Positions 40,521-52,484 of a stretch of DNA of 64,000 nucleotides are shown here, in pieces (position 1 is the stretch's first letter; every line of letters starts with the position of its first letter). Under the pieces are notes generated by a model. It was not told the origin of the DNA, made no database searches, and saw nothing but the letters and a program-made list of their open reading frames with translations. The stretch is from Halorarum salinum. GTDB taxonomy: Archaea > Halobacteriota > Halobacteria > Halobacteriales > Haloferacaceae. Made by a program: the position numbers and the translations under genes. The stretch lies in contig NZ_CP058579.1 of assembly GCF_013402875.1 (NCBI RefSeq), positions 2,976,001 to 3,040,000 on the forward strand, written 5' to 3'.

Positions 40521-41417
40521 TCACACCCCACCATTGTGAAACGTCTCGACCGCCGACCGGTACCCCTCCCGATAGGTAGGGAACGCGAACTCGTATCCGA
40601 TCTCACGTAGTCGTGCGTTGTCGCAGCGCTTGCTCGTACGGACGCGACGCTCGGCCGCCGCCGAGAGCTCCCCCTCCTCGATCCGCTCGGCTTTCGTCCG
40701 CTTCTCCGGTCGGGAGAGCCCGCACTCGTCGGCGAGCCAGTCGGCGAACTCCCACCGGTCCACCGGTTCGTCGTCGACGGCGAGGACGACCTCGCCGCGA
40801 GCGCTATCCCCCTCCAGGAGACGTGCGATCGCACCGGCCGCGTCGTCGCGGTGGATCATGTTGAGGTAACCGGCGGTTACCGGCCCCCTAACGTAGCGGT
40901 CGAGGCGGTAGCGGTCCGGCCCGTACAGGCCCCCGAAGCGAACGACCGTCCCGTCGACGTCGTACTCGACCGCACGCTCCAGCGCGACCCGTTCCGCCTC
41001 CACCAGGACCCCGGTCTTCTCGGTCGTCGGCTCCAGCGGGGTGTCCTCGGTCACCCAGTCGCCGCCGTGGTCGCCGTACACGCCGGTGCTCGAGGTGTAG
41101 ACCAGTCGGTCGGGGGTCGCCGATCGCGACCCGTACTCCGCGAGCACGTTCGCCAGCCCCTCCACGTACACCCGCCTCGCGGCTTCCGCCCCTCGACCGC
41201 CGCTGCTCGCGACGAAGACGACGGCGTCGGCGTCCGGGAGCGACCGGAGGGTGTCGGGGTCGGTCACGTCGCATCGAACGGCTCCCAGTCCGGCGGAACG
41301 AACCCGTTCCAGGCCGCCATCCGACCGACGGGCGCCGACGACGTCGTGGCCGGCGTCCGTCAGGTGTCGTCCCAGCTCGAGTCCGACGTAGCCACAGCCG
41401 ACGACGACGACCCGCAT
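40521..41417 (-). CDS. SDR-family NAD(P)-dependent epimerase-like protein
   Basis: A 298-residue Rossmann protein of the extended or atypical SDR type. The nucleotide motif is VVGCGYVGLELGRHL at the N terminus, and the active-site segment is VYTSSTGVYGDHGGDWV with the Tyr of the YxxxK site displaced, similar to YeeZ-type proteins. VVRFGGLYGPDRY follows. Start ATG 41417 shares a base with the stop of the DUF5791-like gene, so they are coupled. Substrate is probably a nucleotide sugar or similar, but not readable. Confidence 0.87.
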   Translation of the reverse strand: MRVVVVGCGYVGLELGRHLTDAGHDVVGARRSDGGLERVRSAGLGAVRCDVTDPDTLRSLPDADAVVFVASSGGRGAEAARRVYVEGLANVLAEYGSRSATPDRLVYTSSTGVYGDHGGDWVTEDTPLEPTTEKTGVLVEAERVALERAVEYDVDGTVVRFGGLYGPDRYRLDRYVRGPVTAGYLNMIHRDDAAGAIARLLEGDSARGEVVLAVDDEPVDRWEFADWLADECGLSRPEKRTKAERIEEGELSAAAERRVRTSKRCDNARLREIGYEFAFPTYREGYRSAVETFHNGGV

Positions 41418-41842
41418 CAGCCCTTGCGCTCGGCGACGAGCGCCTGGATCGCCGCCAGTTCACCCAGCGTCAGCCTCGTTCGGCCCTCGATCGCCTGCTG
41501 TACCTCCTGTCCGGTGAGGTCGGGTTCGATGTTCGCCGCGATCGTGTCGACGTCGAGGATGGCGGTCACCATCTCCATCATCAGGTGGTCGCGGACCTCG
41601 AACGCCAGGTCCTCCGGCGAGGCGTCCTCGACGAGCGCGAGCACGGTTGCCGCGTCGGCGAGTCGGACGTCCGCCACCTCCCCCGCGGCGATCGCCTCCA
41701 CCGTCCCGCGGTCGAGTCCGGTCGCCTCGACGGTTCCGTCGACTCCGAACTCGGCCACGACTCCGGCGAGCTCCTCGGCGTACGCCGCGAGGAGGTCCCC
41801 CCGCGTCGCCCCCTCCGGATCGTCGTGGGCGTCGTAGAGCAT
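41417..41842 (-). CDS. DUF5791-like haloarchaeal protein
   Basis: A 141-residue all-helical acidic protein. Two helix-turn-helix-like segments (GLDRGTVEAIAAGEVADVRL and RTRLTLGELAAIQALVAE) suggest possible nucleic-acid binding, though no clear family function is known to me. I believe it belongs to DUF5791, seen widely in haloarchaea (memory). It is the first gene of a two-gene unit with the SDR protein. A T-rich minus-strand box CGTTTTGC at about 41866-41874 fits its promoter. Confidence 0.75.
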   Translation of the reverse strand: MLYDAHDDPEGATRGDLLAAYAEELAGVVAEFGVDGTVEATGLDRGTVEAIAAGEVADVRLADAATVLALVEDASPEDLAFEVRDHLMMEMVTAILDVDTIAANIEPDLTGQEVQQAIEGRTRLTLGELAAIQALVAERKG

Positions 41843-41959: not shown

Positions 41960-44900
41960 TTACGGTTCCCGTTCGCAGCCGGGAACGCTGGCGTCCGGAC
42001 AGGGCCACCCGTCCGACCGCTCGTCCGCGTCACCGTCCACGTCGCCGACGCCCCCTTTCCCTGCGGGTACGGCGACGAGGACGACCGTGCTCGTACGGAA
42101 CGAGACGCGTTCGTTCCGACCGACGCGTTCCGGGGCGCCGTCCCCGTCGACGTCGAACCGAACGGGGCGACCATCCCTGACGTACCGGACGACCGTTCCG
42201 GCTCCGTCCGGCGATCCGGTTCGTGCCTCCACCGCGAACTCCGGGTAGTGGCCACGCACCTCGACCGACCACGCGTTGACGGTGGCGTACCAGTAGCCCG
42301 GCGCGGGAGCGACCGGGAGTCCGGCCACTGCCGGGCCGAACGTCCCCTCCGCGTACCGGTCGCGGACCTCCTCGGCGGCACGGTCCGTCCCCGACTCGAC
42401 CGCGTCGTGGACGAGTTCGCGACCCACCCGTCGTTCGGTCGTGACCGTCGCGTTCGTCACGTCCGCCGGGACGGCGATCCGTTCGCTGCCCGCCTCCTCC
42501 GTGACCGACAGTCGCAGACGAACTGCGAGCCGGTCCCGTTCGGTCGCCGAGAACGACCCACGTTCGGCCGTCTCGCGTGCGACCGCGTCCGCGTACGACC
42601 CGTTCGTCATGGCGACCGCTCGCTCGCCGAGACCGGGGTACTCCCGGTCCGCCGCGTCGAGGGCCGCGCTGCGATCCCGAGCGGAGAGGCGATCGCCGGC
42701 GCGTCGGTCCAGCGTTCCGTCGGCGCGGGTTCGGACGCGCCGGACGGACGGCCGTACCTCGGACGCGAGGTCGTCCCGCCGTCGTTCGAGCGTCCGGTTC
42801 CCGCTCGCCCCGAGCGTCCCGTTAGCGCGCCGAAGTGCCAGGCCGGCCGAACGGAGCGACGTCGTTCGGCGCTTCGGGAGCACCGCGTCGGTGACCGTGT
42901 CGGCGACGTCGCCGGACGGGACGGTGAACACGTTCGTGTTTCGAGCGGCGAGCGGGCGGACCTCCCCCACCCGGTGGCTCGCGCCCGTTCGCTCCGGGGA
43001 CACCGACGTGAGCGTCAGATAGCCGGGGGTGGCGTCGGGCGTCAGGACGACCGGCCCGGCGGGCCCGTGACCGATCGGGCGAGGTTCGGGGGCAACCCGC
43101 TCGGCCGTCGCCTCGCTCACCTCGTCGAGGCGCTCCGAAAGCGGTACCTCCGCCTCCTCCAGCGCGTCCCTGAACGCGTCGTTCCGGCGATCCGACGTGC
43201 CGGCTCGGTCCTCGAGGAGGGCGATGAGTCCGTCGAGGAACGCCGCGCGCGCCGCGACGCGTGCGCGGTCGCTCGCGCCGTCGTACCGGGATGGGGCGTC
43301 CACGAGTGCCGCGCGTCGTTCGCGCAGCGCCGCCGCCAGTGCCGCCGGTGCGTTCGCCTCGCCGGCCGCGACGGCGTCGCGGTCGACGCGAACGGTCACG
43401 TCGCGCGTTCGCTCCCGGAGGCCTGCGACGTCGGCGTACACCCAGTCGTCGAGTTCCTCCGGCCGGTCCCCGGAGACGACGATGGTCTCGGTGTCGTCCC
43501 CCGTTTCCGGCGCGTCTCGGGCGACCCTTCGCAGTCGCTCGGGACCCGCGAGGCGTTCGAGCGCGTCGTCCCGAACGTCCGCGAGGTTCGACCCGCCGAG
43601 GGCACCGCCGGGCTCGAACGCCGGCGAGACGGGGCGGTTCGGCCCGTGTGTCGGATGACGGTACTCGGCCGACACCCTGACCCGAACCTCGTGGACGTCC
43701 GTCCACGTCGTTCGGGTCTCGCGCGTCCTCGTTCCGTTCAGCCAGGTTCGGACGGCGGCGTGTCTCACCCGCACCGTCAGCGTCGCGTCGAGGAACTCGC
43801 GCGGGTCGTCCCTCCGGCGGGTGGTTCTGTCGACGACCTCGACGGTGTTCGATCGACGGTCGGCGACGAGCGTCCAGTTCCGGCCCGGCGGCTCGGGCTC
43901 AGGGGCCTCGCCCACGTCCGAGGCCGCGAGCCGGACCGTACGCGTCACCTCGGCCCGATAGGCCGCGTCGGCGACCCGACGGGCGTCGCCGGCGAGGAAC
44001 TCCGCGAACGCCCTGTCGGCGCTCCGGTTCACGCCGACGACGAGGTCCCCGTCGCTCCCCGGGGAAGGAGTCGACCGGGCTCCCGCCGCGCCGGACTGGT
44101 CCCCGCTCGCCGACAGAACGGTGTCGGTCCACGCCGGACCTTGTCGTATCGCCGGCCCGAACAGGTCGGTCGTCCCCACCTCGGCCGTCGCGCGCACGAC
44201 TCCGGCGCGTCCTTCCGCGTCGGCACGGCCATACACCGCCCGTTGCTCACGCAGCGCCGCGGCGTTGCTCGACAGTTCTACGTGCCGGTTCGTGAGGACG
44301 TTCCGAACCGGAGCGCCGCCGTACTGGGCCAGCCCCCGCGCCTCCGCGACGCCCGTGAGCCGCCAGGTGAGCTGCCGGCCCAGTCCCGGCCCTTCGAGCG
44401 GACCGGCGTTGAGCCGTCGTTCGTACCGGAGCGTCCGCTCGTGCATCGCGAGCACCGGCACCGCCACCGTCACGACGTAGTCGGTTCGTGCGGTGGCGAC
44501 GACACGTCCGTCCCGCCTGGCTTCGATCGTCACGTTCCGTATCGTGACCGTCGTGGCCGTCCCGTCCTCGGCGGGACGGACGTCGATCCGACGGATGGCA
44601 TCGCGGAGCTCCGAAGTCGAGTTCACGGCCGGGAGACCGGCGGTTCCGACGGTCCTCCCGTCGTCGACCTCCGTCGTTCGTAGCGCCGACGCGACCGACC
44701 CGTAGATTCGAAGTCTGAGCGCGTCCCTGAACGGGGAACTCCCGTTCAGGGCGTCACCGGCCGGGGTGTCCGCCGGGCCCGTGACCGGTTCTGCCGCCGC
44801 GGCCCGTGCCGCCTCCTCCGTCGCGGTCCTGATAGCCGGACGCGCCGTCGCTTCCGTCCGGTCCAGGGTCGACTCCGCGGCGACCGTACCTCCGGTGGAC

Positions 44901-45004
44901 GCCGAGAGCGCCACGGTGTTCGCGTAGCCGACGCTCCCGAGGAGCAGCACGACGCCCACGAGCGCGAACGGGACGCGGGCGCGGTCCGTGGACTCCCGGG
45001 TCAC
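41960..45004 (-). CDS. large secreted or surface protein of the pilus-like locus (DUF7286-like)
   Basis: A 1014-residue protein, last gene of the pilus-like operon. Residues about 11-30 form one hydrophobic segment after a short positive stretch (RARVPFALVGVVLLLGSVGY), and the rest is soluble and rich in Asn-X-Ser/Thr sites (NGSS, NST, NVT, NGT, NRT), as expected outside the cell. No catalytic motif is recognised. Start is GTG 45004, overlapping the preceding stop by GTGA; the ORF continues further upstream only in antisense to that gene. Its size, one anchor helix and operon place suggest a structural or adhesin-like part of the machine (inference). Confidence 0.72.
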   Translation of the reverse strand: MTRESTDRARVPFALVGVVLLLGSVGYANTVALSASTGGTVAAESTLDRTEATARPAIRTATEEAARAAAAEPVTGPADTPAGDALNGSSPFRDALRLRIYGSVASALRTTEVDDGRTVGTAGLPAVNSTSELRDAIRRIDVRPAEDGTATTVTIRNVTIEARRDGRVVATARTDYVVTVAVPVLAMHERTLRYERRLNAGPLEGPGLGRQLTWRLTGVAEARGLAQYGGAPVRNVLTNRHVELSSNAAALREQRAVYGRADAEGRAGVVRATAEVGTTDLFGPAIRQGPAWTDTVLSASGDQSGAAGARSTPSPGSDGDLVVGVNRSADRAFAEFLAGDARRVADAAYRAEVTRTVRLAASDVGEAPEPEPPGRNWTLVADRRSNTVEVVDRTTRRRDDPREFLDATLTVRVRHAAVRTWLNGTRTRETRTTWTDVHEVRVRVSAEYRHPTHGPNRPVSPAFEPGGALGGSNLADVRDDALERLAGPERLRRVARDAPETGDDTETIVVSGDRPEELDDWVYADVAGLRERTRDVTVRVDRDAVAAGEANAPAALAAALRERRAALVDAPSRYDGASDRARVAARAAFLDGLIALLEDRAGTSDRRNDAFRDALEEAEVPLSERLDEVSEATAERVAPEPRPIGHGPAGPVVLTPDATPGYLTLTSVSPERTGASHRVGEVRPLAARNTNVFTVPSGDVADTVTDAVLPKRRTTSLRSAGLALRRANGTLGASGNRTLERRRDDLASEVRPSVRRVRTRADGTLDRRAGDRLSARDRSAALDAADREYPGLGERAVAMTNGSYADAVARETAERGSFSATERDRLAVRLRLSVTEEAGSERIAVPADVTNATVTTERRVGRELVHDAVESGTDRAAEEVRDRYAEGTFGPAVAGLPVAPAPGYWYATVNAWSVEVRGHYPEFAVEARTGSPDGAGTVVRYVRDGRPVRFDVDGDGAPERVGRNERVSFRTSTVVLVAVPAGKGGVGDVDGDADERSDGWPCPDASVPGCEREP

Positions 45005-45843
45005 GGCGACCACGCCCTGACGACGACGACGACGCGGTCGGTCCTGTCGACCTCCTCGACCGACCGCCGTTCGGTCGAGTTTCCGCGCAGGTCGGCTCGA
45101 ACCCGTTCCGCGACGATCGGACGGAGTAGCTCGTTGGCGGCACGCGGACCGCCACTCTCGAGGGGGCCGATCGTGTCGACGCCGTATCGCTCGCCGACCG
45201 CCCGGTACCGCCGTTCCACGAGTTCGGGGAGCGGCGCGTCGTCGTGGAGCGCGAACCGGAGCCGCTCGGGCGGGAAGAGCGCACGGACGATCGTTGCCGC
45301 CAGGCGGTCGTAGCCATCGGCCTCCACATCGCTCCCGGTCGCGTTTCCGGTCGCCGGGGGGACGTGAACCGGGACGGTGAATCGGGCCGCCTCGACCGCA
45401 CGTCCGGCGGGGGGTTCGGGGCCGACCGTCACGTCGCCGCGGACGTGTGAACCCGGATACGGCTCCCACCGCGCGTGTACTCGCGTCCGCGGCGGGAGCG
45501 CCTCGGCGACGGCGCGCCGCACGCCGCGACGGTAGTCGGCGGAGGCGTTCGACAGCGGACTCCCGGCGATCGATGCGTTCCTGAACGCCGCCCGTGCGAG
45601 CAGTTCCGCGAGCGTCCCGTGCGCGACCCGGTCGCGTTCACCGCTCCCGGAACTCCGCGTCCCGACTTCGCGGTCGTCCGCCGCGAGCGAGTAGCTCACG
45701 TTCCCGGTCGTGACCGCCAGCGTCTCCGCAGTCGCATCCGCCCGACCGGGGGGCAGGTCGGGCTCCTGGGTACCGACGACGGTCAGCGCCGCGGCGCTGA
45801 CGAGCAGGAGACAGAGGCCGGCGTCGAGGGCGGTCGCCGTCAC
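45001..45843 (-). CDS. DUF7284-like membrane-anchored protein
   Basis: A 280-residue protein with one N-terminal hydrophobic segment (TALDAGLCLLLVSAAALTVVG) and a soluble remainder including an EPYPGSHVRGDVTVGPEPPAG stretch (20-plus residues, positions about 126-146). Start is GTG 45843, overlapping the previous stop (GTGA); the end overlaps the next gene's GTG. The N-terminal pattern, short polar leader then hydrophobic helix with an Asp at the start, resembles archaeal pilin-like or pseudopilin-like proteins, but I see no certain cleavage motif. No enzyme motifs. Confidence 0.7.
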   Translation of the reverse strand: MTATALDAGLCLLLVSAAALTVVGTQEPDLPPGRADATAETLAVTTGNVSYSLAADDREVGTRSSGSGERDRVAHGTLAELLARAAFRNASIAGSPLSNASADYRRGVRRAVAEALPPRTRVHARWEPYPGSHVRGDVTVGPEPPAGRAVEAARFTVPVHVPPATGNATGSDVEADGYDRLAATIVRALFPPERLRFALHDDAPLPELVERRYRAVGERYGVDTIGPLESGGPRAANELLRPIVAERVRADLRGNSTERRSVEEVDRTDRVVVVVRAWSP

Positions 45844-46232
45844 GACCAGACCTCCACCGAGAGGGTCGCCCGTCGAACGACGCCCGGCCGCATCTCGACG
45901 CCGACCGACCTGGATGCGTGGCTCGCTCCCTGGGCGGGCGTCGGACCGGCCGTCCTCCGCAGGCCATCCATCACGAGCGAGACGTTCACCTCGTACCCCG
46001 ACGGACCGACGGCCCGTGCGTCGTCCAGCCGATCCGGATCGGTTACGCCGCCCGTCGTGAGCCGGTCGTGCACGCGGTCGAGCGTCGGACTCGCGAGGTC
46101 GCGCCGGGGGTCCGGCGTCACGTCGGCGAGCACGACCACGTACGCCGTGAGACCGAAGACGATCGCGAGCACGGCAGCGAGCGTCACCGTCGGCTCCGCC
46201 TGCGCCCTACGCGGCGAGGACGAGCGTCGCAT
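45840..46232 (-). CDS. DUF7285-like pilin-like protein
   Basis: A 130-residue protein. The N terminus MRRSSSPRRAQAEPTVTLAAV has a basic leader, then a polar junction (AQAEP with Glu near the start of the helix) and a hydrophobic helix to VVVLADV, like a type IV pilin signal. The rest is a small beta-rich globular part ending in ATLSVEVWS. ATG 46232 is used; GTG 46238 is an alternative. It overlaps the DUF7283-like gene by 26 bases. It may form part of a filament with the DUF7284 and DUF7286 proteins (inference). Confidence 0.66.
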   Translation of the reverse strand: MRRSSSPRRAQAEPTVTLAAVLAIVFGLTAYVVVLADVTPDPRRDLASPTLDRVHDRLTTGGVTDPDRLDDARAVGPSGYEVNVSLVMDGLRRTAGPTPAQGASHASRSVGVEMRPGVVRRATLSVEVWS

Positions 46233-46677
46233 CCTCACCCCCCAGGGAGACGCTGCGGACGACCAGCGCTTCGGCCTCGCGCCACTCCGCCGGCCGATTC
46301 TCGACCTCCGCGGTCGCGCTGCGGAAGGACCTCCCGCTCCGGAACGTCGCTCCCGATCGGTCCCCCCTCGCCACGGCGGCGAGATCAGTGCCGGGGTCCA
46401 CCGGAACGACGGGACCGAACGCGAATCGGGCGTGTGCCACCCCGGCGTCGGACCTGAGCGTGAGCCCGTCCGGACCGATCCGAACGGCGTCCGCGGCGAT
46501 CCGGTAGCTCCCGCGGGCGGGCGGCTCACTGGCCGCCACGGAGTCCACGGCGTCCGCGGCGGACGCGGCGTCCGGAGGCGGTGCCGTCGGGACGCCGTAC
46601 GCTGTTCCGAGCAACACGGTGGCGACCGCGGCCGTGCCGAGCCAGGCGTACCACGCGTCCACGGGGACGTCGAACAT
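46207..46677 (-). CDS. DUF7283-like membrane-anchored protein
   Basis: A 156-residue protein with an N-terminal hydrophobic segment (AWYAWLGTAAVATVLLGTAYG) and a proline/alanine-rich stalk, then a beta-rich domain (SGATFRSGRSFRSATAEVEN). The C terminus ends LVVRSVSLGGEDATLVLAA. Start ATG 46677, 31 bases after the PilC-like gene. Single anchor and small domain suit a minor pilin or pseudopilin-type component, though the basic leader is missing. Function unknown. Confidence 0.66.
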   Translation of the reverse strand: MFDVPVDAWYAWLGTAAVATVLLGTAYGVPTAPPPDAASAADAVDSVAASEPPARGSYRIAADAVRIGPDGLTLRSDAGVAHARFAFGPVVPVDPGTDLAAVARGDRSGATFRSGRSFRSATAEVENRPAEWREAEALVVRSVSLGGEDATLVLAA

Positions 46678-46708
46678 GGGGAGTGTGGTCCCGTCACCAC
46701 TGATAAAC

Positions 46709-48406
46709 TTACAGCAGCAACCCCGCCCCCAGGACGCCGACGAGGAAGCTCCCGACGGCCGTGACCAGCGCGATCCCGACTCGATAGGCGATCAGCGCCG
46801 CGTCGATCCCGCGTTCGAGTCCGGTCGCGAGGCCGGTCAGGAGGGTCGCGAGCAGGAGGACGTAACATCCGACCGCGCTTCCGACGAGTTCCGGCGGGAG
46901 CGGTGGCGCAGTCGCGTCCGGACCGAGCCCCCCGCCCGCGGTCGCGAGCCGTCGCGCGAGCGCCACCGTCGCACCGCCGACGAGCGGTCCGAACAGCGCG
47001 CCGGTCTGGACGAGCGTCCGGGTGACGGCTGCGAGGGAGCGCCGCCCGTCCCGTTCGCGTTCGAGGAGTTCGTCGAGCCGGTCGGCGTGCGAGCACAGCG
47101 CCTCGCCGGCGGGCTTCCCCTCCCGTGCGGCGACCGCGAGCAACGAAACCGCCGCCCGCGTGCGGGTTCCCCCCTCGTCCGCGAACGGACCGGACCGACC
47201 GAGGAACGAGTCGCGAACTCCCACGCCCAGCAGTCGCTGGCGGCGGGCGGCCTCCCGGAACGCTCCGCCCGCCCGGCCCGGCGTCCGCGCTCCGGCCCTG
47301 GCGATCGCCGTCTCGACCGCTTCGCCGTCCGCGACCGCCCTGCCGACCGCCGAGAGCGCGTCCGGGAGCCCCCGTTCCAGTTCCCGGACCCGTCGGCGCT
47401 CGCGGACGACCGGCCGTGTGAGCACGACCAGCGAGGTTCCGACCCCGACCCCGACGGCGGCGACTGAGGACGCCCACGCGTCGAGGACGATGCCGGAGGC
47501 GAACCAGGCGACCCCCGCCGCACCGCCCCCGGCCACCGCCGCGAGGACGCGTCCGTCGACGATCGACCCCCGATCGACTTCGACCGCCGGAGGTTGAAAC
47601 GCCACGGGACGGGCGGCGAGCAGCCGCACGCTCCCGACGGCGAGCGAGAACGGAAGCAGGAGGTCGTAGACGAGGACGAACGCGGCCGGGGTGACGGGAA
47701 CGCCGGCAGCGGTGGCCGCCGGGAGGGCTCCGACGAGCGCCAGGGGGAGGAGGACGCCGAACGCGTACAGTCCCGTCACCGGACCGCGGAGTTCGCCCGC
47801 GAAGGAGGCGACCCGTTCGCTGAGCGCGGTGTCGACCGCCCGTACCGTCCGGTCCAGGATCCGGTCACGACGCTCCGGGTTCGCCTCTGCCGCCGCGAGC
47901 AGTCCCGCAGTCGCCCGGTCGAGCGCCGGAAACCACGGGCTCCATTCGTCGGTGAACCCGTTCAGGCCCGTCCGGGGCGTGCCGACGCTCCGCTCGACGT
48001 GGTCCCGGAGACTCCGCGCCAGAATCCCCTCGCCCGAGCGGGCGGCGAACCGCGCGGCGCGTTCGGGCACCGGCATCAGCCGCATCCGGAGCGCCAGCAT
48101 CCCGACGAGCTCCAGCGCGTCGCTCAACGCCCGAGTCCGTCGGAAGGCGGCCAGCGTTCCCGGCGCCGCCTCGACGGCGCGCACCGATCCGATTCCGAAC
48201 GCGACCGCGAGTGCGCTCCCCGTCGACGCGCCAAGCGCGGACACGAGCGCGATCCAGACCGCGAGCGAGAGGACCGTCGCCGTCACGTACCCGGCACCCA
48301 GGACGAACTCGGGCGGGTGGGACACGTTCAGAACGCCGAGCGATCGTCGGAGGTCGGCGTCGACCCGGATCGGGAACGGCCAGACGGTCGCGAGCCGTCT
48401 CAGCAT
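46709..48406 (-). CDS. type IV pilus/secretion-type inner-membrane platform protein (PilC/TadC-like)
   Basis: A 565-residue membrane protein with a T2SSF/TadC-like arrangement: two cytoplasmic GspF-type domains, the second with RELERGLPDALSAVGRAVAD, and about eight hydrophobic segments between and after them (GYVTATVLSLAVWIALVSAL; LALVGALPAATAAGVPVTPA and others). It is the platform on which the ATPase acts to polymerise or move pilin-like subunits. The stop of the ATPase gene overlaps its start by 7 bases. The N-terminal half is shorter in its second domain than in archaellar ArlJ. Confidence 0.82.
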   Translation of the reverse strand: MLRRLATVWPFPIRVDADLRRSLGVLNVSHPPEFVLGAGYVTATVLSLAVWIALVSALGASTGSALAVAFGIGSVRAVEAAPGTLAAFRRTRALSDALELVGMLALRMRLMPVPERAARFAARSGEGILARSLRDHVERSVGTPRTGLNGFTDEWSPWFPALDRATAGLLAAAEANPERRDRILDRTVRAVDTALSERVASFAGELRGPVTGLYAFGVLLPLALVGALPAATAAGVPVTPAAFVLVYDLLLPFSLAVGSVRLLAARPVAFQPPAVEVDRGSIVDGRVLAAVAGGGAAGVAWFASGIVLDAWASSVAAVGVGVGTSLVVLTRPVVRERRRVRELERGLPDALSAVGRAVADGEAVETAIARAGARTPGRAGGAFREAARRQRLLGVGVRDSFLGRSGPFADEGGTRTRAAVSLLAVAAREGKPAGEALCSHADRLDELLERERDGRRSLAAVTRTLVQTGALFGPLVGGATVALARRLATAGGGLGPDATAPPLPPELVGSAVGCYVLLLATLLTGLATGLERGIDAALIAYRVGIALVTAVGSFLVGVLGAGLLL

Positions 48407-50259
48407 CGGTCACGATCCGTCCCTTCGGGCCCCGTCCTGCCGTCGACGGCGAGCGATTCCAGCCGGTCGGCCCGGTCGTGGATCGCCGTCCGAACGTCGT
48501 GATAGGACTCGGCCGGCCCGGCGAGCGCCGGGAGCAGGACGCTCTCGCCCCGCTCGATCACGCCGGTGGGCGCCGGTTCCCCTCCGGAACGGTCGAACAG
48601 CGGGACGATTCGGGTCGCGTCGTCGCCGACGCGTACCTCCTCGACGGCGCCGAGCCGTCGATCGGGGGCGAGCGAGACGACGAGATCGGTCGCCGCGAAC
48701 GAGGATTCGGGAACGCCGAGGTCCGAGACGACGCGTTCGCGGACCGTCTCCCCGTCGGAACCGTGGATCGTGCCGAGCACGGCGTCGGCCGCCGCCCCGA
48801 TCCGCATCGCCTCGTACAGCGCCGTCGCCTCCTCGCCCCGAACCTCCCCCACGACGAGCGCACCGTCGCCGAGTCTCAGGGCCGTCCTGACCGCGTCGGT
48901 CGAGGTGAGCGCCGCGTCCGGGCCGTTTCCGACGCGGATCGACTGGACGTCCCGGTCGGCGCCGCGAAGCGGGTCGGTGGGGAGCTCCGGCGTGTCCTCG
49001 ATGACGACCGTCCTGACGGCCTGAGGAAGCTCCCAGAGGAGCGCGCCGAGCGTCGTCGTCTTCCCGGCGCCCCGCGGACCGGCGACGAGTGCGGTCACGC
49101 CGCGTTCGACCGCGAGCGAGAGCACCCCCGCGGCGGAGGGAGGGATCGACCCGACGGAGATCAGCCGTGCGAGCGTCCACGGCTCGTCGTCCGTGCGGCG
49201 GAACGCGAACGCCGGACCGTCGCTCGCGGGGTCGGTGACGCCCGCCACCCGAACGCCGTCCAGCGAGGCGTCGACGGTGGGGGAGGCACGCGAGAACGAC
49301 CGCCCTCCCGCCGTCCGCACCCGGGACGCGAGCGCGGACAGGTCCCTTCGGGAGAACCGGACGTTCGTCGTCACGGGGTCGCCGTCGACGACCGCCCGGA
49401 CCGGGCTCCCGGCCGCCGGCGCGGTGAGGAAGGCGTCGGTGAGCCCCGAGTCCGCGAACAGGTCGTCGAGCAGGCCGTTCCCGCGCGTGTGCTTCCGGAG
49501 CACCGTCGACAGCGTCTCGACGGGGTCGTCCCGTCCCGCGACCGCACGGACCGCTCGCCCGGCGGCGCGGTCCCCGCCCCGAACGGTCCCGTCCGCGAGC
49601 GCGGCGGCTGCCTCCTCGAGGGCCACGAGCGCGTCCGCGTCGAGCGAGGCGCTCGCGGGCGTGAGGTGGTACAGTGACCTGTCGGCGTTCGTGTCGTACA
49701 GCCTGGCGGTCGCTCCGGTGTCGAGGTCTCGGACCTCGCGGAGCGTCGCGCCCGCCGGAACCCGGTCGTCAGCCCGACCGCGCGCGACCGACGGGGCGGC
49801 CGTGGGCCGGAGGACGTCCTCGTAGTCGGTCACCCCCTCCGCGCAGGCCGACAGTCCCGTCTCGGCGGCGACGCGAGCGACCGATCCGGCCCGGCCGCTC
49901 GCCGCTCGCACGGCCGCGAGGGGATCCGTCCGGGCCCGGGCGGAGAGTTTCGGGTCGTGGTGGGCGACCCGCTCGACGAACCGTCCGGCCGCGAGCAGGA
50001 ACGCGGCGGCGCGGCCGTCGTACGTTCGCTCGAGGCCGTCGGCCCGAGTCAGGACCGTCGCGGCGTCGCGCTCCGCCAGGCGGTCGACGACCGTCGACCG
50101 ACAGGCCGGAGCGGCCTCCAGCTCTCCCCGCCCCGGGCAGTCGTCGGCGTCGACGCGGAGCGTCACCCGGCCGTCGGCGGCACCGGTCGGGGTCCGGACG
50201 GCCGCGTCACACATGCACCGTCGTCCGTCGTCCGGCCGGAGGCGGTCGGGGAGGCGCAT
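48400..50259 (-). CDS. PilB/VirB11-type secretion ATPase
   Basis: A 619-residue ATPase of the T2SS/T4P/T4SS type, motor of the pilus-like system. From ATG 50259: Walker A GPRGAGKTT at 394-402, Asp box VVIEDTPEL near 418-426, Walker B LVVGEVRGEE about 468-477 and His box GTIHGSDG about 496-503. The N-terminal region carries Cys residues (CMCDAA about 15, DDCPGRG about 40, PACRST about 52) that could hold a metal. The start is uncertain: ATG 50259 makes a 97-base overlap with the upstream gene, ATG 50214 a shorter one. The gene is followed directly by its membrane partner. Confidence 0.87.
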   Translation of the reverse strand: MRLPDRLRPDDGRRCMCDAAVRTPTGAADGRVTLRVDADDCPGRGELEAAPACRSTVVDRLAERDAATVLTRADGLERTYDGRAAAFLLAAGRFVERVAHHDPKLSARARTDPLAAVRAASGRAGSVARVAAETGLSACAEGVTDYEDVLRPTAAPSVARGRADDRVPAGATLREVRDLDTGATARLYDTNADRSLYHLTPASASLDADALVALEEAAAALADGTVRGGDRAAGRAVRAVAGRDDPVETLSTVLRKHTRGNGLLDDLFADSGLTDAFLTAPAAGSPVRAVVDGDPVTTNVRFSRRDLSALASRVRTAGGRSFSRASPTVDASLDGVRVAGVTDPASDGPAFAFRRTDDEPWTLARLISVGSIPPSAAGVLSLAVERGVTALVAGPRGAGKTTTLGALLWELPQAVRTVVIEDTPELPTDPLRGADRDVQSIRVGNGPDAALTSTDAVRTALRLGDGALVVGEVRGEEATALYEAMRIGAAADAVLGTIHGSDGETVRERVVSDLGVPESSFAATDLVVSLAPDRRLGAVEEVRVGDDATRIVPLFDRSGGEPAPTGVIERGESVLLPALAGPAESYHDVRTAIHDRADRLESLAVDGRTGPEGTDRDRC

Positions 50260-50750
50260 GGACCGCCTGGTCCCGTTTCCGCACTTGAACCTTCGGCGAC
50301 CGCCACGAACACCTCCCCGTCCCCCGCCAGCCCTACGGCCCGCGTTCGATACGCCAGTTCCAGCACGTGGCGACCGGACTCCTCGAACCGGACGCCGCCG
50401 TCCGGGAGCGTCAGGTCCGCGTCGACCGGTCGGCTCGTCGACGGGCGCGTTCCCACCGCGTACTCGAGCGTGACGCCGACGCCCGGCGCCGGACAGAGTT
50501 CGACGAACCTCCCTCGTGCGGCGGTCAACGACCCCCGAGGGAGCCACACGGACACGCGGCGGCTGGCACCCGCGACGCCCGGTTCGACCGGGTCGGAGCC
50601 GGTCCGGAGGTCGGCTGCCTCGTCCTCCAGCGCCGTGCCGAACCGCGAGAGGTCGCTATCGGTCCGGTACGCGCCCGCGCCCTCGATGGCGGGAAGCGAC
50701 GTCGACACGAGCGCGACCGCCAGTACGGCCGCGAGGACGTATCTGATCAC
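50163..50750 (-). CDS. DUF7311-like membrane-anchored protein
   Basis: A 195-residue protein starting at GTG 50750 with a short hydrophobic segment (VIRYVLAAVLAVALVST), then a region resembling a beta domain (SRRVSVWLPRGSLTAARGRF, VTLEYAVGTRPST, GRHVLELAYRT). The C-terminal 25 residues (GGPCASPTASGRTTDDGACV) hold two cysteines. It overlaps the coiled-coil gene by GTGA and the ATPase by up to 97 bases. Function unknown. Confidence 0.68.
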   Translation of the reverse strand: MIRYVLAAVLAVALVSTSLPAIEGAGAYRTDSDLSRFGTALEDEAADLRTGSDPVEPGVAGASRRVSVWLPRGSLTAARGRFVELCPAPGVGVTLEYAVGTRPSTSRPVDADLTLPDGGVRFEESGRHVLELAYRTRAVGLAGDGEVFVAVAEGSSAETGPGGPCASPTASGRTTDDGACVTRPSGPRPVPPTAG

Positions 50751-51322
50751 AGTGCGTCGCGAAGCCTGCTCGCGACCCCGTCGGGGGCGGACTGATCGGC
50801 CGAATCGGAGTCCCGCTCGGGGGCAGCTCCCGATCGCAGTTCCGATCCGTGGTGCGCTTCGGACTCCGATTCGGATTCGAGGCCGGGAGCCGCATCGGAG
50901 TTCCCCTCCGACCCAGTTGGAACGCCGGGCGCGGCGTCGGCTTCGAGTCGGTCGACCGCGGCGAGCGCCGCGTCGGCCCGGCGCTCCACGTCGCGGTCGA
51001 CCGCACGGACGCCCCCGACGTATCCGCGGAGCGCCTCCGTCGCACCCTCCAGGTCCGCGAGGCGGTCCTCCAGATCCGCGAGCGAGTCCTCCACGGCGGA
51101 GAGTCGTCGGTCGAGGTCGGCCGCGTCGGACCCGCCGACGCTCGCGTGAGCGCCACCGGCGGTCGGCGTGCAGCCGTCGTCGGCGAGCGCGCGCTCGACG
51201 GCCGAGAGCCGCGCGGCGAGCGCGGCGGGATCGACGTTCCCCCCGGTACCGCCGCGGGCCCGTCGGCCCGGATCGGTCGCGTTTCGGCTCCGATTCGTCT
51301 CCCCCTCGGTCGGTTCCGACAT
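50747..51322 (-). CDS. DUF7310-like coiled-coil protein
   Basis: A 191-residue soluble, acidic protein, first gene of the pilus-like operon. Heptads occur at about residues 31-50 (PAALAARLSAVERALADDG) and 70-100 (ADLDRRLSAVEDSLADLEDR), followed by a disordered tail rich in Ser, Glu and Asp. No membrane helix. Start ATG 51322. It might be a cytoplasmic scaffold between the ATPase and other parts (inference). Confidence 0.7.
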   Translation of the reverse strand: MSEPTEGETNRSRNATDPGRRARGGTGGNVDPAALAARLSAVERALADDGCTPTAGGAHASVGGSDAADLDRRLSAVEDSLADLEDRLADLEGATEALRGYVGGVRAVDRDVERRADAALAAVDRLEADAAPGVPTGSEGNSDAAPGLESESESEAHHGSELRSGAAPERDSDSADQSAPDGVASRLRDAL

Positions 51323-51395
51323 GGGGCAACTGGTCCCGGTTCCCCTCAAGAAGTTGTGGGAAGATTCAAGCGGTCGGGTGAACTTGGCCCCTTCC
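51323..51395. promoter_or_regulatory. 73-base divergent promoter region between the pilus-like operon and cetZ
   Basis: The only space between the divergent starts at 51322 (minus) and 51396 (plus). AT-richer parts lie at about 51344-51356 and 51360-51371 (AAGATTCAAG about 26 bases before the cetZ ATG). No clear consensus TATA box, so the assignment of promoter elements is weak. The short gap makes shared control likely. Confidence 0.45.
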
Positions 51396-52484
51396 ATGAA
51401 GACGGTCCTCGTCGGGGTCGGACAGGCCGGCGGCAAGGTGACGTCGGCGCTCGTCGACTTCGACCACGAGATGGGGTTCGGCTCGATCATCGGCGCGCTG
51501 GGCGTCAACAGCGCGAAGGCCGACCTCCAGCCCCTCCAGTTCGACACGGTACTCGTCGGCCAGGATCGCGTGAAGGGTCACGGCGTCGGCGGCGACAACG
51601 AACTCGGCGCCGAGGTGATGCAGGGCGACGCCCGCGAGGTGATGGGCGAGCTCTCCGGCCGCATCACGGCCGAGGCGGAGGCGATCGTGGTCGTCGCCGG
51701 GCTCGGCGGCGGCACCGGCTCCGGCGGCGCGCCGGTGCTCGCGAAGGAGCTCAAGCGCGTGTACGACGTGCCGGTGTACGCGCTCGGCATCCTCCCCGGG
51801 CGGGGCGAGGGGACGATGTACCAGGTGAACGCCGGCCGGTCGCTCAAGACGCTCGCGCGGGAGGCCGACTCCGTCCTGCTCGTCGACAACGACGCGTGGC
51901 ACAGTTCCGGCGAGAGCGTGGAGGAGGGGTTCGGCAGCATCAACGCGAACATCGCGCGCCGCGTCGGCCTCCTGCTCGCCGCGGGCGAGGCCGTCGAGGG
52001 CGTCGGCGAGAGCGTCGTCGACACGAGCGAGGTGATCAACACCCTCAGGTCGGGGGGCATCTCGGCGCTCGGCTACGCGAGCGCGGAGGCGAGCGAGGAC
52101 CCTGACGAGAACATCAACGTCGTCACCAGCGTGACGCGCAACGCGCTGTTGACGGGCACGAGCCTCCCGAACGCCGTCGAGGCCGACTCGGCGCTGCTCG
52201 TCGTCGCCGGGGAGCCGGAGACGATCTCCCGGAAGGGCGTCGAGCGGGCGCGGAAGTGGGTCGAGGAGGAGACCGGAAGCATGCAGGTCCGCGGCGGCGA
52301 CTTCCCGCTCGAGTCCGGCCGACTGGCGTCGCTCGTCCTGCTCGGCGGCGTCGAGCGCAGCGGTCGGGTCGAGGAGTTCATGGAGCGGGCGGCCGCCGCC
52401 GTCGAGGAGGCCGACGAGCAGGAGGCGACCCGTGACTCAGAGGAGAAACTGTTCCAGAACGACGACCTCGACGGTCTGATCTGA
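51396..52484 (+). CDS. CetZ-family tubulin-like GTPase
   Basis: A 362-residue archaeal tubulin/FtsZ-superfamily GTPase. N-terminal loop GVGQAGGKVTSALVDF, the tubulin signature GLGGGTGSGGAPVL at about residue 107, the T5 region VLLVDNDAWHSSGE, and the C-terminal GDFPLESGRLASLVLLGGV typical of CetZ rather than FtsZ. The tail is acidic and short (EKLFQNDDLDGLI). CetZ proteins form filaments and control cell shape, rod development and motility in Haloferax. Which CetZ paralogue this is cannot be told. Start ATG 51396 fits the family; in-frame ORF extends upstream into the divergent gene. Confidence 0.92.
   Translation: MKTVLVGVGQAGGKVTSALVDFDHEMGFGSIIGALGVNSAKADLQPLQFDTVLVGQDRVKGHGVGGDNELGAEVMQGDAREVMGELSGRITAEAEAIVVVAGLGGGTGSGGAPVLAKELKRVYDVPVYALGILPGRGEGTMYQVNAGRSLKTLAREADSVLLVDNDAWHSSGESVEEGFGSINANIARRVGLLLAAGEAVEGVGESVVDTSEVINTLRSGGISALGYASAEASEDPDENINVVTSVTRNALLTGTSLPNAVEADSALLVVAGEPETISRKGVERARKWVEEETGSMQVRGGDFPLESGRLASLVLLGGVERSGRVEEFMERAAAAVEEADEQEATRDSEEKLFQNDDLDGLI

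Follow-up and report, generated by a model that had tools for sequence, protein, structure and literature searches.

Haloarchaea possess a type IV pilus system of subclade 4F that has a coiled-coil component unique to it and lies near an FtsZ-like gene (Makarova et al., 2016, PMC4858521). A pilB2/C2 regulon adjoining cetZ2 has been described in Haloferacales and Halobacteriales, with arCOG04674 and arCOG03095 as flanking genes (Brown & Duggin, 2023, PMC9856176). In that work CetZ proteins were proposed to scaffold type IV systems, the regulon was not seen at cetZ2 in Natrialbales and a relatively recent mobile element was suggested as its origin (PMC9856176). Here we analyze a copy of this locus in a 64,000-nucleotide stretch of the Halorarum salinum genome (contig NZ_CP058579.1, positions 2,976,001 to 3,040,000; hereafter the window), where an eight-gene pil operon diverges from cetZ2. 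The pairing itself is known from earlier publications as the pilB2/C2-cetZ2 locus (PMC4858521, PMC9856176); this study adds prepilin motifs established family by family, deletion scars that overturn the evolutionary history proposed so far, evidence for separate promoters and a distance test. In our view the locus fairly likely codes for the published pilB2/C2 system of haloarchaea, a type IV-pilus-like assembly machine that CetZ2 probably assists.

The window locus shares with the published regulon the ATPase/platform pair, predicted pilins, a coiled-coil component, adjacency to cetZ2 and a downstream hypothetical gene and epimerase. It differs in the history that can be read from it: recent acquisition was inferred there, whereas remnants found here, some of them from Natrialbaceae, indicate that the regulon was there ancestrally and was lost. 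The pil-2 locus of Halobacterium salinarum (pilB2 being OE1347R) likewise combines pilB2 and pilC2 with putative prepilin genes and is transcribed, pilB2 at a low level that rises 8.5-fold in adherent cells (PMC4292770). The pilC2 gene of strain R1 carries an in-frame stop and pilB2 of NRC-1 an insertion, whereas the window copy is intact. The PilB3-C3/PilA adhesion pili of Haloferax volcanii are similar in their PilB/PilC-driven assembly and expected PibD processing, but there the PilA genes lie apart from pilB3-C3 and encode a Pilin_N-type N-terminus, while the window subunits belong to other families. Finally, a CetZ gene also lies beside a type IV pilus system in Thermococcales (PMC9856176), with an ATPase clade and pilin set that differ as far as the descriptions in the papers go.

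Organization of the locus

The pil operon consists of eight tightly packed minus-strand genes at 41960-51322 of the window, as delimited by Pfam matches and open reading frame coordinates. Six of its seven junctions overlap, the exception being a 31-nucleotide gap between pilC and the DUF7283 gene. The DUF7310 gene starts at 51322 and cetZ2 at 51396 on the plus strand, leaving 73 nucleotides between the two starts. A preliminary description, made from the sequence alone, had reported an eight-gene operon with a secretion ATPase, a PilC-like platform and six DUF families, and a cetZ gene 73 bases away on the opposite strand. Its coordinates, families and distances all hold, the 73 bases exactly, as does its assignment of a single N-terminal hydrophobic helix to five of the DUF proteins (DUF7311, DUF7283, DUF7285, DUF7284 and DUF7286), DUF7310 having none. 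The eight-gene order is far beyond chance because it recurs in dozens of loci. The individual features are listed below, with Pfam accessions and E-values where available.

51396-52484, plus strand: cetZ2, tubulin-superfamily GTPase, 362 residues (CetZ_C 2.8e-66, Tubulin 1.4e-28, Pfam)
51323-51395, no strand: divergent intergenic region, 73 base pairs (bp), with the cetZ2 core promoter and a separate TATA-like element of the operon
50747-51322, minus strand: DUF7310, predicted cytoplasmic coiled-coil protein, 191 residues (PF23991, 1.1e-26; no transmembrane segment)
50163-50750, minus strand: DUF7311, one N-terminal hydrophobic helix, 195 residues (PF23993, 6.1e-37)
48400-50214, minus strand: PilB2-type secretion ATPase, 604 residues (T2SSE, 7e-18)
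46709-48406, minus strand: PilC2/TadC-type membrane platform, 565 residues (T2SSF in orthologues; hydropathy)
46207-46677, minus strand: DUF7283, N-terminal membrane helix, 156 residues (PF23954, 3.8e-47)
45840-46232, minus strand: DUF7285, prepilin-like, 130 residues (PF23956, 9.2e-35)
45001-45843, minus strand: DUF7284, pilin-like, 280 residues (PF23955, 8.2e-80)
41960-45004, minus strand: DUF7286, large prepilin-like putative surface protein, 1014 residues (PF23957, 1129 bits, E = 0)
41417-41842, minus strand: DUF5791 gene, constant flank downstream of the operon (PF19104, 3.5e-41; present in 133 of 146 genomes)
40521-41417, minus strand: NAD-dependent epimerase/dehydratase-like gene, the next constant flank (from locus layouts)

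By position, the DUF5791 gene fits arCOG04674 and the epimerase-like gene arCOG03095.

In an alignment of orthologues the Walker A motif, the Asp box, the GEVRG motif and the His residues of PilB are invariant, as are two Cys residues at its N-terminus. The Walker A, Walker B and His motifs expected of a VirB11/GspE-type ATPase in a type IV pilus system are thus all preserved in PilB. Its closest solved relatives in the PDB are 2OAP (an archaeal GspE-type ATPase, 4.5e-40), CpaF and FlaI. The PilC-like protein of the window alone yields no Pfam match; among 22 orthologues that were aligned, 15 match T2SSF (best 5e-8), and hydropathy analysis indicates about seven transmembrane-like segments. 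A polytopic T2SSF platform is therefore encoded beside the ATPase, as in type IV pilus systems, and PilB and PilC are, as judged from these motifs and profiles, the two components at the core of a type IV-pilus-type machine. The combination of the coiled-coil DUF7310 with an ATPase bearing N-terminal Cys residues corresponds to subclade 4F, and DUF7310 likely represents the coiled-coil component arCOG07564, going by the description of the latter. The clade label of H. volcanii PilB2 is itself disputed, with 4C given in one study (PMC6491452) and the FtsZ-like gene associated with 4F in another (PMC4858521).

Prepilin-like sites of the DUF proteins

To describe prepilin motifs, residues were counted at the aligned site preceding the N-terminal helix, in located orthologues only, because a FlaFind-like regular expression proved unreliable: it gave false matches inside DUF7284 ("LDA") and DUF7311 and missed DUF7286. 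At this site DUF7285 carries K/R followed by G/A at positions -2/-1 in 54 of 58 orthologues, mostly as [KR][GA]/Q[VT]EP (the slash before the Q, and likewise in the motifs below, marking predicted cleavage), the window site being RRA/QAEP. DUF7286 carries R[AG] at -2/-1 in 73 of 75 orthologues with the consensus R[AG]/R[VI]PFAL, represented in the window by DRA/RVPFAL. Both window proteins thus display a predicted class III signal peptide cleavage site, RA/Q in DUF7285 and RA/R in DUF7286. These sites resemble those of processed pilins, since RAQI- and KGQV-type sites are listed among processed Methanococcus pilins (PMC4371748).

In DUF7284, R[AG] is found ahead of [VI]STVLDV in 49 of 67 loci, while in the other 18 the start codon coincides with the processing site; those of the 18 that could be placed belong to the window's own family or to Halorubrum. 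The window copy also starts at the processing site (45835-45843) and has no earlier in-frame start, so that its leader is missing. Such a leaderless subunit would not need PibD. The N-termini of DUF7283 and DUF7311 orthologues contain the helix and no conserved prepilin motif. One Peptidase_A24 (PibD-type) gene is located elsewhere in the same genome, making a prepilin peptidase available, and five Pilin_N genes are likewise found elsewhere, with no Pilin_N/PilA-family gene in the locus. The earlier remark that the locus contains no prepilin peptidase or classical pilin is literally correct as regards Pilin_N/PilA and misleading in that DUF7285 and DUF7286 carry a prepilin-like site.

Structure prediction for DUF7285 (predicted local distance difference test score, pLDDT, 89) gave a helix at residues 14-36 followed by two short helices and four strands. 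The DUF7286 model (pLDDT 80) consists of N-terminal helices followed by several mixed alpha/beta domains. The preliminary view of the four proteins behind PilC as filament or substrate parts gains support from the prepilin-like motifs of DUF7285, DUF7286 and most DUF7284 proteins; the two models neither establish a pilin fold nor argue decisively against one. DUF7285 would best fit the part of a small filament subunit.

Distribution of the locus and separate promoters

To investigate the distribution of the locus, searches for DUF7310, DUF7286, CetZ2 and DUF5791 were combined across 146 genomes of the order and more than 100 loci were inspected. 141 genomes were tabulated, with adjacency defined as cetZ2 lying within 1 kb of DUF7310, and the resulting counts depend on these thresholds. 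cetZ2 adjoins DUF7310 in 62 of the 141 genomes, representing nine families, and in 51 of these 62 (eight families) the intact operon is present on the same contig. The proximity of cetZ to the operon, for which a comparison of gene order had been proposed, is consequently not peculiar to this genome. In eight genomes cetZ2 and the operon are both present but apart, and 36 have neither. The eight-gene order is constant save for a few rearranged or divergent copies, and loci lacking cetZ2 still carry DUF5791, usually together with the epimerase, after the operon. Several genomes, including Natrialbaceae-type ones, contain a divergent second copy of the whole operon with no cetZ nearby, in which DUF7286 scores about 200-415 bits. 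One genus has a reordered operon away from cetZ2 (pilB-pilC-DUF7285-DUF7284-DUF7286-DUF7283-DUF7310), and two genomes from the Halorussus-type family have the operon split and partly inverted around cetZ2.

The product of the divergent gene matches 4B45 with 533 bits and 4B46 with 333 bits, the structures of H. volcanii CetZ2 and CetZ1, respectively (PMC9856176). Across the 146 genomes surveyed, CetZ2 proteins are 60-100% identical to the query, with orthologues at 60-90%, and other CetZ proteins are about 52% identical, with a clear E-value gap in between. By these comparisons the gene is cetZ2; the closest named loci, from Halobaculum gomorrense and H. litoreum, show 83-84% identity. CetZ2 proteins possess a conserved acidic C-terminal tail, F-x-N-D-x-[LI]-D-[DGS]-L-[FIL] (window 52390-52484), with or without the operon. 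Its sequence is reminiscent of a C-terminal binding peptide.

The 73-bp region holds two back-to-back promoters rather than one shared promoter. The cetZ2 core promoter of the window, GGGAAGATTCAAG, lies at about -37 to -25 from the ATG. Its transcription factor B recognition element (BRE)/TATA-like element, GGAA..TT[GC]A[AT]T at about -38 to -26 across loci, is conserved both in 67 loci where DUF7310 adjoins cetZ2 and in 15 where it does not. Further out, the per-locus sequences show a TATA-like element that belongs to the operon. Co-regulation of cetZ2 and the operon is possible. A shared promoter region, originally put forward as linking the surface machine to the cytoskeleton, was discarded as evidence of a cetZ2-operon link: the elements are separate, and the cetZ2 core promoter is retained unchanged in genomes lacking the operon.

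Proposed function and alternative explanations

In the mechanism that we propose, PilB2 as the ATPase and PilC2/TadC as the platform would push membrane-anchored, PibD-processed prepilin-like subunits into a filament or a short pseudopilus. The subunits may be the small DUF7285, DUF7284 and the large DUF7286, the last of which could form a tip or adhesin; DUF7311 and DUF7283 would be single-helix accessory proteins, and the coiled-coil DUF7310 may act in the cytoplasm as an adaptor or as a regulator of the ATPase. Polymers of CetZ2 would probably help to place or scaffold the machine, possibly in contact with it, and CetZ2 would also have a role where the machine is absent. Support for a functional link comes from the divergence of the genes. 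When the RpoB contribution is removed, cetZ2 distances correlate with combined operon distances with a partial r of 0.68 (0 of 2000 permutations, n = 34 genomes). In these 34 genomes the corresponding values are 0.44-0.57 for cetZ2 against pilB, pilC and DUF7286, 0.38-0.60 for operon genes against one another, 0.18 for cetZ2 against DUF5791 and -0.02 for cetZ2 against the epimerase. Other CetZ paralogues gave a partial r of -0.29 against the operon (n = 18 genomes), a rough control in which CetZ1 is mixed with a few other CetZ proteins. We infer that the distance correlation supports a functional connection of CetZ2 with the machine.

Several observations weigh against this interpretation. No filament originating from a pilB2/C2-cetZ2 locus is reported in the literature that we found. 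The DUF7284 leader is missing in this genome, and DUF7286 has an Arg at +1, outside the residues of the FlaFind rule, by which 0 of 80 sequences qualify. Neither the DUF7285 nor the DUF7286 model matches a PDB structure at E ≤ 0.001. Of the 141 genomes, 9 have the operon but no cetZ2, and 26 have cetZ2 but neither an intact operon nor a neighboring DUF7310 gene. CetZ2 and the operon are hence not obligate partners. Moreover, DUF5791 reaches a partial r of 0.47 in the 18-genome subset, which means that linkage explains part of the correlation.

It is quite conceivable, if short of probable, that the genes are linked without a common function, an ancestral block having been inherited intact while CetZ2 shapes cells independently of the machine. 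Survival of cetZ2, conserved C-terminal tail included, after loss of the operon, survival of the operon after loss of cetZ2 and the separate conserved promoters would all fit such a history. The neighboring DUF5791 and epimerase genes show similar constancy, and deletion of cetZ2 in H. volcanii alters cell shape in early biofilms (PMC10606840). Linkage by itself does not readily account for the RpoB-corrected divergence of cetZ2, which tracks that of pilB, pilC and DUF7286 no less strongly than operon genes follow each other, unlike that of DUF5791 and the epimerase, and a different CetZ-pilus adjacency has been reported in Thermococcales (PMC9856176).

The locus could also encode a pseudopilus secretion machine that forms no surface pilus, with DUF7285 and DUF7284 building a short piston and DUF7286 serving as an exported or displayed substrate, which we regard as rather unlikely. 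The ancestral operon always ends with the large, conserved DUF7286 gene, PilB2 is related to GspE- and CpaF-type ATPases and genes of the PilA family are confined to other parts of the genome, all of which would suit secretion. DUF7286, however, has a membrane-helix prepilin-type N-terminus, so it would be anchored or part of a filament, and no gene for a separate soluble substrate is found in the locus.

Remnants of an ancestral locus

cetZ2 directly adjoins DUF5791 in 15 genomes, at a distance of 136-267 bp. Operon remnants are present between the two genes in five families including Natrialbaceae. Halobacterium hubeiense retains the whole of DUF7310 followed by DUF7286 residues 749-980 (83% identical to those of a relative), Halorubrum coriense DUF7310 residues 1-68 followed by DUF7286 residues 861-1041, and Haladaptatus sp. 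QDMS2 DUF7286 residues 604-992. Natronosalvus amylolyticus has kept DUF7285-DUF7284-DUF7286, with pilB and pilC missing, and in Halostagnicola larsenii XH-48 DUF7310 alone lies intact beside cetZ2 (locus L043, 4080-4823). One genus of a further family retains DUF7310-pilB-pilC-DUF7283, the remaining genes having been lost at the site. Remnants at the same site in five families mean that deletion took place. In addition, operon distances follow RpoB with a rho of 0.69-0.72 (0.67-0.72 with cetZ2 included), as vertical descent would give. On this comparative evidence the haloarchaeal ancestor already had the arrangement of cetZ2, operon, DUF5791 and epimerase, and repeated losses followed.

Halostagnicola larsenii also contains a second, rearranged pil locus in which pilC-pilB-DUF7311 diverges from DUF7285-DUF7284-DUF7286 and DUF7310 is absent. 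This species is named among the Figure 6 regions after the pili-associated examples (Brown & Duggin, 2023, PMC9856176) and was evidently taken as regulon-less there. The H. larsenii pattern, with DUF7310 kept at cetZ2 and none in the second pil locus, can be cited for a DUF7310 adaptor that would tie CetZ2 polymers to the PilB2/PilC2 motor, an ancestral CetZ2-guided pilus having often been lost while CetZ2, and sometimes DUF7310, was kept; we hold this specific scenario to be doubtful.

A recent mobile element inserted beside cetZ2, as suggested previously (Brown & Duggin, 2023), would fit the clean cetZ2-DUF5791 junction of the 15 genomes and the identical flanks with and without the operon (PMC9856176), but we reject it as highly improbable on the basis of the deletion scars, which in five families preserve remnants of both ends or of internal genes at one and the same site, the RpoB-like operon distances and the same gene order at the same flanks across many families.

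Implications

Our analysis names the likely processed subunits of the pilB2/C2 system as DUF7285 and DUF7286, joined by DUF7284 outside Haloferacaceae-type loci, and points to DUF7310 as the first candidate for connecting CetZ2 physically to the machine. In place of a recently acquired element, the locus emerges as an ancestral one that was deleted repeatedly, and genomes with deletion scars or with cetZ2 alone represent natural controls. If CetZ2 does position the type IV-pilus-like machine, the locus would clearly exemplify a tubulin-family cytoskeleton in the service of an archaeal surface organelle.

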